The translations under genes were made by a program, and so were the position numbers. A DNA stretch of 64,000 nucleotides from Halanaerobium salsuginis (lineage in GTDB: Bacteria; Bacillota; Halanaerobiia; Halanaerobiales; Halanaerobiaceae): positions 1 through 64,000 of the forward strand of contig NZ_FOTI01000006.1 of NCBI RefSeq assembly GCF_900114545.1. The letters run 5' to 3'. Below, one piece after another: positions 421-38,030 of the stretch (positions are counted from its first letter, which is position 1; each line of letters begins with the position of its first letter). Under the pieces are notes generated by a model. The model saw only the letters and a list, made by a program, of their open reading frames with translations, was not told where the DNA came from and made no database searches.

Positions 421-495
421 TTAAGGTTGAGCCGAAGAGAAAACCTTATTGTGATTTAATGGGATAACTATGCCCAAATTACAATAAGGTTTTTT
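421..495 (+). promoter_or_regulatory. glpF leader: intrinsic terminator with competing hairpin, probable GlpP target
   Basis: The arm at 441-457 (AAACCTTATTGTGATTT) pairs with 476-492 (AAATTACAATAAGGTTT) over 17 positions with one G-U pair. An inner GGG/CCC (461-463 with 473-475) closes the loop, and a T run lies at 490-495: a strong intrinsic terminator between promoter and first gene. An upstream segment TAAGGTT (422-428) can pair with AACCTTA (442-448), the same bases used by the terminator, giving a mutually exclusive fold. In Bacillus the glpFK and glpD leaders hold such terminators, which GlpP with glycerol-3-phosphate overrides; a glpP gene lies at 8421. The link to GlpP is inferred. 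Confidence 0.75.
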
Positions 496-2931: not shown

Positions 2932-4407
2932 TTGGCTAATAAATATGATGTAATTATAATTGGGGGTGGGATTTCTGGCTGTGCAGTAGCCTGGAAATTA
3001 GCCCATTATAATTTAAAAATCTTACTAGTTGAAAAAGAAGCAGATGTAGCAACTGGAACTACAAAGGCAAATACAGCGATTATTCATGCTGGTTATAATG
3101 CTGATCCGGATAAATTAAAAGGTAGACTGAATGTTAAGGGTAATGAACAAATTAAAGAAATCAGTAAAAAACTAAATGTCCCTTTTCGTGAAATAGGTTC
3201 ATTAGTAGTAGGACTGCAAAATGATAATTTAAAAGTTATTGATCAATTATATGCTAAAGGCAAAGAAAATAAAGTAAAAAATATGAAAATAGTAGATCGT
3301 AAGTGGTTGAGAGAAAATGAACCAAATATTTCTCCAAAGGCAGTTAAGGCGCTCTGGGCGCCTACTGCCGGCATAATTACTCCCTGGGAATTTGCGCTTG
3401 CAATGGCCCAAAATGCTGTTGCTAATGGGGCGGAAGTTAAGTTAGAAACTGCTGTTTTAGATATAATTACTGATTCTGATCAGGTAAAAGGTGTGAAAAC
3501 AAATCAAGGTGATTTTTATGCTGATTATGTAGTTAATGCTGCTGGACTTTATGCTGATGAAATTGCTCAATTGGTAGGAATTGAAAAAATAAAAATCACT
3601 CCTCGTAAAGGAGAATACTATATCTATGATCAGGCAAAAGATTTTGCAGTAAATCATGTTATTTTCCCAGTTCCAACCCCAATTAGTAAAGGGATAGTAG
3701 TAACTCCAACAGTTGAGAATAATTTATTGATTGGTCCTACTTCAGAAAAAGTAGCTAGTAAGCAAGATCTTGCAACAACTCGTTCAGGATTACTAGAAGT
3801 TATTTCCGGTGCTAAAAAATTGTATCCAGATTTAGATTTAAAAGATACAATTCGAGTCTTTGCTGGGTTGCGAGCAGCAGATGAAACAGAGGATTTTGTG
3901 ATTGAAGCTGCTCCACATTTAAAAGGATTTATTAATGTAGCTGGAATTCAATCACCAGGACTCTCGTCTGCAACTGCTATTGCAGATTTTACTGTAGAGA
4001 TTATGGAAGCTCAGGGACTAAAATTGAGTGAGAAAAAAGAAGTAATTGAAACAAGACCTGAACCAGTTAGATTTTACGAAATGACAAATCAGGCTAGAGC
4101 AAGTTTAATCAGTAAAAATAAAGATTATGGTCAGATAATCTGTCGCTGTGAAACAGTTTCTTATCAGGAAATTATTGATGCTATTCATGGCCCAGTAGGA
4201 GCTAGAACTGTTAATGCAGTTAAAAGAAGGACTCGCGCTGGTGCTGGTAGATGTCAGGGTGGTTTTTGTGGTCCCCGAGTGGTAGAAATAATAGCTCATG
4301 AATTAGGGATTGATCCAACTGAAGTTAAGCAGGAAGAAGCTAATTCTAATATCTTAGAATATAAGATTAAAGAACTGTTGGGAAAAAAGGTGATTGAAAA
4401 TGCATAA
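2932..4407 (+). CDS. glpA: FAD-dependent glycerol-3-phosphate dehydrogenase, GlpA-like with BFD-type Fe-S domain
   Basis: A 491-residue flavoprotein with an N-terminal Rossmann motif IIGGGISG (9-16) and a DAO-type oxidase fold. The C-terminal BFD-like [2Fe-2S] domain has cysteines at 404, 406, 441 and 446 (CRC ... GRCQGGFC). It probably oxidises glycerol-3-phosphate to dihydroxyacetone phosphate. The TTG start is chosen because GGAAGGGGCG lies about 10 bases upstream and the Rossmann motif follows at once. It overlaps the following GlpB-like gene by 8 bases, implying translational coupling. No membrane-anchor GlpC is encoded nearby, so its electron acceptor is unclear. The wider family also contains other hydroxyacid oxidases; operon context favours G3P. 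Confidence 0.85.
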   Translation: MANKYDVIIIGGGISGCAVAWKLAHYNLKILLVEKEADVATGTTKANTAIIHAGYNADPDKLKGRLNVKGNEQIKEISKKLNVPFREIGSLVVGLQNDNLKVIDQLYAKGKENKVKNMKIVDRKWLRENEPNISPKAVKALWAPTAGIITPWEFALAMAQNAVANGAEVKLETAVLDIITDSDQVKGVKTNQGDFYADYVVNAAGLYADEIAQLVGIEKIKITPRKGEYYIYDQAKDFAVNHVIFPVPTPISKGIVVTPTVENNLLIGPTSEKVASKQDLATTRSGLLEVISGAKKLYPDLDLKDTIRVFAGLRAADETEDFVIEAAPHLKGFINVAGIQSPGLSSATAIADFTVEIMEAQGLKLSEKKEVIETRPEPVRFYEMTNQARASLISKNKDYGQIICRCETVSYQEIIDAIHGPVGARTVNAVKRRTRAGAGRCQGGFCGPRVVEIIAHELGIDPTEVKQEEANSNILEYKIKELLGKKVIENA

Positions 4408-5680
4408 ACTGGAGAAGAAATTAGTTATAATCGGTGGAGGTCCTGCTGGATTAGCAGCTGCTAAAACTGCATTTGATAAAGGAATTACAGATATATTAAT
4501 TTTAGAACGAGATTTTGAATTAGGTGGTATTTTACCCCAATGTATTCATAATGGTTTTGGTCTGCATCATTTTAAAGAAGAATTAACTGGACCAGAATAT
4601 GCACAACGCTTTATTAATGATGTTGCTGAGCGAGCAATTGAGATTAAATTAAATACTATGGTATTAGATGTCAAAGAGAATAAAAAAGTTTATGCAGTAA
4701 ATAAAACGGAAGGTTTTTTTGAAATTCAGGCAGCAGCAGTTATTCTGGCAATGGGTTGTAGAGAAAGAACTGCTGGTGCAATTGGAATTCCTGGTACTAG
4801 ACCAGCTGGGGTTATTACAGCTGGAACAGCTCAACGTTATACGAATATTGAGGGGTACTTACCCGGTAAAGAAGTAGTTATACTTGGTTCAGGTGATATT
4901 GGGTTAATTATGGCCCGTCGTCTGAAATTAGAAGGAGCTAATGTTAAGGCAGTCTGTGAATTATTACCTTATACAGGTGGTTTAACAAGAAATGTAGTTC
5001 AGTGCCTAGAAGATTATGATATTCCATTATTACTTAATCATACTGTAACAGGAATTAAAGGAAATGGTAGGCTAAAAGCAGTAGAAATTTCTGAAGTAGA
5101 TAAAAACTTAAAACCAATTCCAGATACAGCTAAAATTATTAAAGCTGATACTTTACTTTTATCAGTTGGTTTAATTCCTGAAAATGAACTTTCTAAAAAA
5201 GCCAATGTTGTTCTTGATCAAAGAACTGGTGGTCCCATTGTAAATGAAGGTAGAGAAACTAATATTCCAGGAATTTTTGCCTGTGGAAATGTGCTTCATG
5301 TACATGATCTGGTTGACTGGGTAACTGAGGAAGCTGAAATAGCAGCTAGTTGGGCAGTAAAATATATTAAAAAAGATTTCTTAAAAGAGACAGCAGCAAT
5401 TAAAGTCAAAGCTGGCCAAAATGTTAGCTATGTAATTCCACAAAAAATAGAATTACAGGCAGACGATCGTAAAAAGATACCACTTTATATGAGAGTAAGT
5501 CAACCTTTAACAGCAGTTAATATTAATTTATTTGCAGATGGAGAAAAACTATATTCTTTTTCAGAACCATTTGCTAAGCCTGGTGAAATGATTAGTATTC
5601 CACTTGCTCAAAAAACTCTGGCCCAACATGAAAACTTGCAAGAAATAAGTGTTGAGATAGTTGAAAAGGAGGGAGAATAG
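4400..5680 (+). CDS. FAD/NAD-dependent oxidoreductase, GlpB-like partner of the G3P dehydrogenase
   Basis: A pyridine-nucleotide-disulfide-type flavoprotein of 426 residues. It has an FAD motif VIIGGGPAG near the N-terminus and a second Rossmann motif VILGSGDIG in the middle for NAD(P)H, ending with an IFACGN segment typical of this family. ATG 4400 is preferred over an in-frame TTG at 4394 because the ribosome site AAGGTG (4387-4392) is seven bases from the ATG but only one from the TTG. The set GlpA-like / this protein / DUF1667 recurs in anaerobic bacteria. It could pass electrons from G3P oxidation to NAD or another carrier; the direction is not shown by the sequence. Confidence 0.82.
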   Translation: MHKLEKKLVIIGGGPAGLAAAKTAFDKGITDILILERDFELGGILPQCIHNGFGLHHFKEELTGPEYAQRFINDVAERAIEIKLNTMVLDVKENKKVYAVNKTEGFFEIQAAAVILAMGCRERTAGAIGIPGTRPAGVITAGTAQRYTNIEGYLPGKEVVILGSGDIGLIMARRLKLEGANVKAVCELLPYTGGLTRNVVQCLEDYDIPLLLNHTVTGIKGNGRLKAVEISEVDKNLKPIPDTAKIIKADTLLLSVGLIPENELSKKANVVLDQRTGGPIVNEGRETNIPGIFACGNVLHVHDLVDWVTEEAEIAASWAVKYIKKDFLKETAAIKVKAGQNVSYVIPQKIELQADDRKKIPLYMRVSQPLTAVNINLFADGEKLYSFSEPFAKPGEMISIPLAQKTLAQHENLQEISVEIVEKEGE

Positions 5681-6055
5681 ATGATTGAAACTAAAACCTT
5701 AACCTGTGTTGCCTGTCCAAAAGGTTGTGAAGTTACTATAGAATATGAAGGTAATGAAATAATTGAGATTAAAGGCAATACCTGTCCTCAGGGTTCTGCA
5801 TATGCCAGGGAAGAAATAGTTGCTCCGACTAGAATTCTCCCGACAACGGTAATAGTTAAAGCTGGTGCTTTACCACTAGTTCCTGTTAAAACAAGTAAAG
5901 CAATTCCGCTAGAAATAATTCCTGATGCTATGGAAATTATTGCTAAACTAGAAATTGAGGCGCCAGTAAAGATGGGTGATGTAATTTTAAAAAACATTTT
6001 AGAAACAGGAGCAGATGTAGTAGCAACTAGAAATTTGCCAGTGCTTAAAGCTTAA
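5681..6055 (+). CDS. DUF1667 cysteine-rich protein, third component of the GlpAB-like set
   Basis: Small 124-residue protein that starts immediately after the stop of the preceding flavoprotein gene. Its N-terminus has four cysteines (C9, C12, C16 and C35, in TCVACPKGC and GNTCPQG), a pattern suited to an iron-sulfur cluster. DUF1667 proteins nearly always sit next to GlpA/GlpB-like flavoproteins in anaerobes, so it is probably an electron-transfer or assembly subunit of that complex. The biochemical role is not established. Ribosome site GGAGGGAG overlaps the end of the preceding gene. Confidence 0.8.
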   Translation: MIETKTLTCVACPKGCEVTIEYEGNEIIEIKGNTCPQGSAYAREEIVAPTRILPTTVIVKAGALPLVPVKTSKAIPLEIIPDAMEIIAKLEIEAPVKMGDVILKNILETGADVVATRNLPVLKA

Positions 6056-6098: not shown

Positions 6099-6138
6099 TA
6101 TATACCCGGCCAGAAAATATTTTCTGGCCGGGTATATA
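6099..6138. terminator. Perfect 40-bp palindrome after the glp operon, likely bidirectional terminator
   Basis: The half-site TATATACCCGGCCAGAAAAT (6099-6118) is followed directly by its exact reverse complement (6119-6138) with no spacer. Folded RNA would give a long GC-containing stem (CCCGGCCAG/CTGGCCGGG). It lies 43 bases after the DUF1667 stop and before the chemoreceptor gene. No clean T run follows, so it may be a terminator, an mRNA-stabilising hairpin or a symmetric protein site. Confidence 0.7.
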
Positions 6139-6307
6139 ACAATAAATATTAATTTCTATTTTTTTGGACTAAAATTATTGAATTATTAAAAAAATAAGAA
6201 GGAATTTTACCCTTTAAACTAAAATATAATATGTAGGGGTAAAAAGTATTAGTAAATGAATTATATTTCAAAAGTAAAAGCAGACAAAAAAATAGGAGAT
6301 GATATTA

Positions 6308-8420: not shown

Positions 8421-8993
8421 TTGAGATATTTATTTCCTTATTTTAAAAAGTATCCTATTATTCCAGCTGTAAGAAAAATTAGTGATTTAGAAAAAGCAAT
8501 GCAGATTGAAAAAGCTGTGCTAGTTTTTTTATTAGCTGGCTCAATTTTTGATCTTGAATTAGCCATGAATTTAGCTCATCAAAATGATAAGATTTTATTT
8601 GTAAATATTGATTTAGTAGATGGGATAGCTACTGATGAAAAAGGAATTGAGTATTTGGCAGAAAATGATCTTTGTGATGGAATTATTTCTACTAAAAGTC
8701 ATTTGATAAAAATAGCAGATCGGACAGGATTAATGACGATTCAAAGAATTTTTTTGCTTGATTCTGATTCGCTTAAAAGTGCTCAAAAAATGTTAGGTAG
8801 TAAGTATATAGATGCGGTTGAAATTTTACCAGGAATAGCAGCACCATATTTTATTGAGATGCAAAAAAACTTAAAGATTGATTATCCAGTCATTGCTGGT
8901 GGTTTAATTAAGGAGCTTCAGGAAATAGAAAAACTTGTTAAAACAGGTGCTTTTGCAGTTTCGACAAGTAAGCAGGAACTCTGGAACTATTAA
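8421..8993 (+). CDS. glpP: Glycerol-3-phosphate-responsive antiterminator GlpP
   Basis: A 190-residue cytosolic protein of the GlpP family, usual length, with a TIM-barrel-like run of alternating strands and helices (ILFVNIDLVDGIA, AVEILPGIAAPY, PVIAGGLI). In Bacillus subtilis GlpP binds leader mRNA in the presence of glycerol-3-phosphate and prevents termination ahead of glpFK and glpD. The strong leader terminator at 441-495 ahead of glpF is the obvious target here. TTG start, preceded by AAGGAGG at good distance; the protein starts MRYLFPYFKKYPIIPAVR as expected for the family. dhaK begins 17 bases after its stop, so glpP may be cotranscribed with dhaKL. Confidence 0.9.
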   Translation: MRYLFPYFKKYPIIPAVRKISDLEKAMQIEKAVLVFLLAGSIFDLELAMNLAHQNDKILFVNIDLVDGIATDEKGIEYLAENDLCDGIISTKSHLIKIADRTGLMTIQRIFLLDSDSLKSAQKMLGSKYIDAVEILPGIAAPYFIEMQKNLKIDYPVIAGGLIKELQEIEKLVKTGAFAVSTSKQELWNY

Positions 8994-37755: not shown

Positions 37756-37799
37756 TGTAAAAAATGTTTTATTTACTTAAAAAACTTAATCTGAATAAA

Positions 37800-38030
37800 T
37801 CAGCTAAGAAAGGGAGAGTAGCAGTTTGAATAGTTGCTAGCGAACCGGAATTGGTGAAAGCCGGGAAACAACAAATTGTGAAGATCACCCTGGAGTTGGT
37901 ATTATGAAATTAATTGAGAAGAGTAGTATACCCGTATATCTGCGTTAAAGATACTTAAGATAAGGTTAATTGACCTTAATTAGGGTGGTACCACGGTCTC
38001 TCGTCCCTTGCTGGACAGAGATTTTTTTGT
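37800..38030 (+). promoter_or_regulatory. Isoleucine T-box leader of ileS
   Basis: The 396-base gap between divIVA and ileS holds a T-box riboswitch. The T-box core AGGGTGGTACCACGG is at 37982-37996; its terminator follows, CTCTCGTCC pairing with GGACAGAG (37998-38020) and a T run at 38022-38028. Stem I is in about 37810-37900, with GAAGATCACC placing a likely specifier codon ATC (Ile) at 37884-37886. Uncharged tRNA-Ile would stabilise the antiterminator and permit ileS expression. The remaining bases to the start hold only the ribosome site AGGAGG. Confidence 0.93.

Follow-up and report, generated by a model that had tools for sequence, protein, structure and literature searches.

The site at which the glycerol-3-phosphate responsive antiterminator GlpP acts in Bacillus subtilis has reportedly been studied in Glatz 1996, Glatz 1998 and Darbon 2002, which PMC9604022 and PMC3997798 both cite. 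Structures of GlpP have been solved (3kts, 1vkf), and within the accessible part of the literature its RNA target is not spelled out. The loop consensus described here occurs in no title or abstract found by literature search, and prior publication is possible. In the portion of PMC9604022 that was accessible, B. subtilis GlpP together with glycerol-3-phosphate (G3P) is described as acting on the glpD, glpFK and glpT promoters by way of a GlpP site and a terminator that lie in the 5′ UTR. The leader of the glpF operon of Halanaerobium salsuginis resembles these B. subtilis leaders in its promoter, short leader and conditional intrinsic terminator, in the glycerol and G3P genes downstream and in the presence of a PF04309 protein in the genome. 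It is also reminiscent of the leaders controlled by SacY and LicT (BglG family), where a protein-stabilised hairpin shares bases with a terminator's left arm. GlpP belongs to a different protein family and, unlike the internal-loop hairpin of the SacY/LicT antiterminator RNA, the RNA described here has one stem, capped by a GAG...GAGA hairpin loop.

The window analysed is a stretch of 64,000 nucleotides, and the promoter, leader elements and protein-coding genes located in it below all lie on the forward (+) strand. It begins within the last part of a 23S gene, followed by a 5S rRNA gene (215–331) and then by the promoter of the glpF operon (370–398). This is an extended −10 promoter formed from TTGACA (370–375) and TAAAGT (393–398), joined by a 17-nt spacer with TG ahead of the −10 element (10 of 12); a like layout, TTGACA-N17-TATACT, is seen by eye in the leaders L003 and L004. 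Judged from this promoter, which lies upstream of the hairpin described below, the transcript is predicted to begin near 405, before 422 and not downstream of 457, a start point that the sequence-only reading had weighed against its own proposal. The operon continues with glpF (573–1388, glycerol facilitator of the MIP family), glpK (1412–2908, glycerol kinase, FGGY), a gene for an FAD-dependent glycerol-3-phosphate dehydrogenase-like protein (2932–4407, DAO and BFD [2Fe-2S]), one for an NAD/FAD oxidoreductase (4394–5680, Pyr_redox_2) and one for a DUF1667 protein (5681–6055). A long inverted repeat 3′ of the last gene (6100–6139, seen by eye in the sequence) likely marks the end of the operon. 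The glpP gene, correctly placed about 8 kb downstream by the sequence-only reading, is found at 8421–8993 (PF04309, E 3.5e-56). It is the sole PF04309 match in the genome, lies upstream of dihydroxyacetone kinase genes and, from its position beyond the inverted repeat, seems to form a transcription unit of its own. The glpF operon stands directly 3′ of the 5S rRNA gene, and 5S-like sequence is also present upstream of glpF in L004 and L005.

Between the promoter and glpF (573) lies a terminator of the intrinsic type. Its left arm (442–456) pairs with its right arm (477–491) through 15 computed pairs, with 4 apical pairs above them (460–463/473–476), and a T-run of six T follows (490–495); the stem of about 17 pairs before six T that had been noted from the letters was thus a fair description. 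The sequence-only reading also had the alternative pairing right. The 5′ arm TAAGGTT (422–428) pairs with AACCTTA (442–448) to form a 7-bp antiterminator hairpin that closes the loop GAGCCGAAGAGAA (429–441), a GAG-N5-GAGA(A) element that is the proposed GlpP-binding determinant. As the 3′ arm of this hairpin belongs to the left arm of the terminator, the two structures are mutually exclusive. This accords with folds computed stepwise as the RNA is extended from 405, in which the hairpin is present with 3′ ends from 446 to 486, being complete at 448, and is replaced by the terminator from base 488. The fold of 405–510, suggested beforehand as a check, gives −37 kcal/mol against −15.0 ± 3.1 for shuffled sequences (z −7.2). 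Folded alone, the hairpin (421–449) gives −5.7 (z −3.7, none of 200 shuffles being as good) and the terminator (442–492) −20.3 (z −6.1). No Rfam covariance model reaches the gathering score of its family at the leader, the Rfam matches in the window being confined to LSU rRNA, 5S rRNA and a T-box leader (37797–38011, 113.7 bits). A search across the window for the loop, with up to 2 mismatches, returns no second site.

A glpF match is present in 14 of 61 genomes, a set made up of the window's own genome and those of relatives. Ten glpF leaders (alignment A1) have a constant GAG-N5-GAGAA loop and differing arms, with a covariation score of 0.283 against 0.202 in shuffles (1/500); the GAG and AGA of the loop show little or no variation across alignments A1, A5 and A6. 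In A6, which holds 24 leaders of a single register, 80.4% of cells are paired against 66.4% when shuffled, double changes occur in 6 of the 7 pairs, 28 cells are changed on both sides against 8.2 shuffled, and the covariation score is 0.498 against 0.212 shuffled (0/500) and 0.014–0.211 for slid-partner controls, the covariation being inflated because members of A5 and A6 were picked partly by pairing or register. A stem that covaries around a constant loop is as expected for a protein-binding element. The sequence-only reading had staked its proposal beforehand on covariation of the 422–448 stem in relatives, and this is present, with the GAG...GAGA loop constant. Its suggestion that the whole stem–loop is the protein-binding element is refined by the same alignments, in that the loop is conserved and the stem varies in sequence and length.

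Permuting the arms of 61 sites, some of which were found by a pairing criterion, lowers the fit from 7.64 for the sites' own arms to 4.10 ± 0.29 (0/2000), and for the 51 sites with distinct arms from 7.63 to 3.86. A cleaner test is the structure-only scan, which makes no requirement of the loop sequence. Upstream of 69 glp genes it gives 32 matches, 16 of which contain a GAG..GAG loop by our own reading (glpA/O 14/18, glpK 1/11, glpF 1/3).

Covariance model R1, used for further searches, adds sites in the neighbourhood of GlpP loci and ahead of glpK and glpA/O genes, and a wide model (R2) holds too little information for whole-genome searching. Some R1 matches were set aside: those in L066 and L067, from genomes without GlpP over the cut-off, are two related, coding-like stretches and no leaders, and those in L080 and L082–L084 fall in coding-like or unrelated sequence. 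A GlpP scan of the species-genome collection led to 80 named loci. The hairpin with its overlapping terminator precedes glp genes in Halonatronum, Orenia, Natroniella, Anaeromonas, Schnuerera, Caldanaerobacter, Caloranaerobacter, Clostridium akagii, a Thermosipho MAG and MAGs labelled Atribacteria, Aerophobetes and Deltaproteobacteria, the lineages with such leaders being Halanaerobiia, Bacilli, Clostridia, a Thermosipho and other MAGs. A motif-plus-terminator scan of the 80 loci gives 44 matches, some of them far from recognised glp genes, against 27 for the reversed-core control and 6, 7 and 10 for other control cores; purine-rich cores are common, and with 27 matches for the reversed core the count alone is weak evidence.

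The Bacillaceae and Paenibacillus relatives of B. subtilis share the loop, read there as GGAGANNNN(N)GGAGA, on stems that are short (mostly 3–7 pairs) and overlap the terminator in the same way. Since some Bacilli stems have just 3–4 pairs, the loop may outweigh the hairpin in these leaders. The halanaerobial leaders differ from those of B. subtilis in their often longer stems (7–8 pairs in the window and its close relatives) and in a fixed-position GG-N5-TATG-YC element. The window also differs from the Bacilli leaders in having no AAGTTAATA-like box 5′ of the hairpin, a box present in 13 of 22 Bacilli rows by our own count. This box stands shortly before the GGAGA hairpin in L124, L175, L178, L179, L191–L193, L206, L208 and L217; in some Bacilli it reads AAGTTCATA or AAGTTAAAA, and its position is near the expected transcript start.

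GlpP is over the cut-off in 38 of the 59 genomes of the class Halanaerobiia, and these genomes have lower best R1 E-values than the 21 others (p 0.0013). The difference persists once the seed genomes of the model are left out (29 with GlpP against 20 without, p 0.0099), where a match with E<0.01 occurs in 10/29 and 0/20, respectively, leaving 19 of the 29 GlpP-containing genomes with no R1 match under 0.01. Genome G038 has the site, and no GlpP in it passes the cut-off; the contig with the site begins 683 bases before glpF, and the missing region is where GlpP sits in G050. In Clostridia, where the glpK loci of only 30 genomes were covered at low sensitivity, the full motif lies near glpK in 4 of 19 loci from genomes with GlpP and in 0 of 11 from genomes without it. 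Across these leaders the genes behind the site include glpF, glpK, glpD/glpA, MFS transporters, ABC solute-binding proteins and glpP; that the site precedes glycerol and G3P genes fits the role of GlpP. GlpP-type sites with terminators before ABC solute-binding proteins (L105, L117, L137:19164, L145:11594, L161) suggest GlpP control of G3P or glycerophosphodiester import. One site, in an Aneurinibacillus MAG (L147:1892), lies 101 nt before glpP and may be autoregulatory. Three genomes (G007, G011 and G013) each have three GlpP paralogues over the cut-off, and loop variants such as GAGTCGAAAAGA (L077, L078) might distinguish the targets of such paralogues.

The recurrence of the same hairpin–terminator before glp genes in many lineages, and its tracking of GlpP, point to a GlpP-type antitermination leader, and the glpF leader is very probably a conditional terminator under GlpP control. 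The claim that a GlpP antitermination target precedes glpF is accordingly supported by covariation and co-occurrence; the binding of GlpP itself we infer from the conservation of the site, its co-occurrence with GlpP and what GlpP is known to do in B. subtilis. RNA polymerase would start near 405, and the nascent RNA is computed to form the hairpin (422–448) by base 448. Without bound protein, the right arm (477–491) is predicted to displace the hairpin at about base 488, so that stem 442–491 would be completed and transcription would stop in the T-run before glpF. With G3P present, GlpP would bind the GAG...GAGA loop and keep 442–448 from 485–491, and the polymerase would read on into glpFK and the G3P-oxidising genes.

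Much of this switch would look the same if the hairpin were stabilised by another RNA-binding factor or by a small molecule, as in a glycerol or G3P riboswitch, with GlpP a bystander. A hairpin with a conserved loop would fit another ligand too, and GlpP enters the scheme above at an inferred step. We nevertheless regard this as improbable, as the strength of the site follows GlpP, including its absence at E<0.01 from all non-seed genomes of the class without GlpP, the genes behind it match the role of GlpP, and one stem with a 13-nt loop would make a small aptamer by riboswitch standards. Another possibility is that stem 442–491 is an ordinary terminator shielding glpF from the upstream rRNA operon and that the 422–448 pairing is a by-product of the TAAGGTT repeat. 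The 5S rRNA gene does end at 331, and a repeat of any terminator arm yields an alternative hairpin. The promoter, however, sits between the 5S gene and the stem, and the alternative arm shows covariation around a conserved loop in leaders that elsewhere include those of glpD and glpA; a shielding terminator is therefore very improbable indeed.

A second conserved element, GGGATAACTATGCC (461–474; consensus GG-N5-TATG-YC at 462–474), occupies the apical loop of the terminator and is a candidate pause site. It is a lineage-specific addition to the GlpP-type leader in halanaerobes and is new here. Between the terminator arms, TATG[CT]C occurs in 19 of 33 leaders of the class against 0.9 when shuffled (highest 4 in 300 rounds) and GG-N5-TATG in 14 of 33 against 0.6 (highest 4), where L081 and L105 were dropped from the 35 leaders given because the script saw no terminator in them; the background in DNA of the class is 0.018 and 0.015 per 51 nt, respectively. 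Measured from the first G of GAG, the G of TATG lies at 40–50 nt in 22 of 35 leaders and at 40–46 nt in 21 of them. Over 20 leaders, leaving out the near-duplicates L078 and L079 and leaders lacking the element, this distance averages 43.3 (sd 2.1), and mean identity in this set is 37% for the intervening stretch (offset 18–29) and 63% for the element. The leaders L009, L011 and L012 contain two copies 18 nt apart. In several clostridial leaders CCTATGG is found at 31, and the clostridial leaders L111, L118, L154, L182, L186 and L187 have in common a different apical hairpin, CCTATGGANNGATAGG, always 31 nt from GAG.

As described in the accessible parts of two papers, the elemental RNA-polymerase pause signal consists of G-10, Y-1 and G+1 (PMC12288461, PMC9291695). 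The window agrees with this consensus, with G462 at −10, the pyrimidine T471 at −1 as the RNA 3′ end of the candidate pause, and G472 as the next base (+1). Among 29 occurrences chosen only by T[AG]TG[CT], G stands at −10 and at −11 in 22. The generic consensus is found at offset 39–47 in 17 of 35 leaders of the class, against 1–7 in windows clear of offsets 36–50. In leaders outside the class the element is mostly absent from this position, T[AG]TG occurring at offset 39–47 in 7 of 43; the generic consensus is present there in 13 of 43, so that the latter is not rare by itself. Pauses ahead of a terminator/antiterminator decision are likewise described, in what was accessible of PMC12288461, for the NusG- or hairpin-stabilised pauses of B. 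subtilis. Unlike the NusG pauses, the window has no TTNTTT at −11 to −6 and resembles the plain elemental signal.

With the polymerase at T471 the end of the hairpin (448) is 23 nt back. The footprint of RNA polymerase is roughly 14 nt, and a pause at this position would leave the hairpin free for GlpP with the terminator yet unmade. In leaders of the class the fixed-position GG-N5-TATG-YC may slow the polymerase at T471, with the hairpin just clear of the enzyme, a weaker step than the others proposed; its match to the elemental signal suggests a pause that would give GlpP time to bind. We put forward only tentatively, as a reading more doubtful than not, that the halanaerobial GlpP switch has a built-in pause, set about 43 nt beyond the first GAG, at which the hairpin has just emerged from the exit channel. 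The element may instead have no pause function and be either the terminator's apical hairpin with a favoured loop or a relic of common ancestry, a reading to which we give slightly under an even chance. RNAfold closes 460–463/473–476 in the window, other lineages keep a different apical hairpin, and the leaders are related, so that conservation of the element is in part due to shared descent. Against an apical hairpin as the conserved feature, pairs −9/+2 to −13/+6 do not covary in 22 leaders (56.4% paired against 60.1% shuffled; covariation score 0.175 against 0.233), and both sequence and distance are kept over a poorly conserved intervening stretch. If the pause reading is correct, the decision to read through would hinge on pause time as well as on GlpP with G3P, and in halanaerobes one could test how a pause works when its distance from a protein-binding antiterminator is fixed.

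Taken with the covarying stems of many lineages, the loop consensus provides a minimal RNA for binding assays and co-crystals. It also lets GlpP targets be listed in any genome, and candidate glycerol transporters are already indicated. A literature search for DUF6905 found no papers. In some Halanaerobium genomes without a glpF match, tandem small membrane proteins of this family lie between a GlpP-type leader and glpK. Intact pairs occur in five genomes, at L079:648–1368 (G006), L076 (G008), L085 (G009), G053:C7 and G056:C4, with a glpF match in 0 of 5, and G058, which has glpF, contains broken DUF6905 copies only. That the pairs replace glpF behind the leader makes them candidate glycerol transporters. 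In G007, a 291-aa protein without a Pfam match (L092:1840–2715) occupies the DUF6905 position before glpK.
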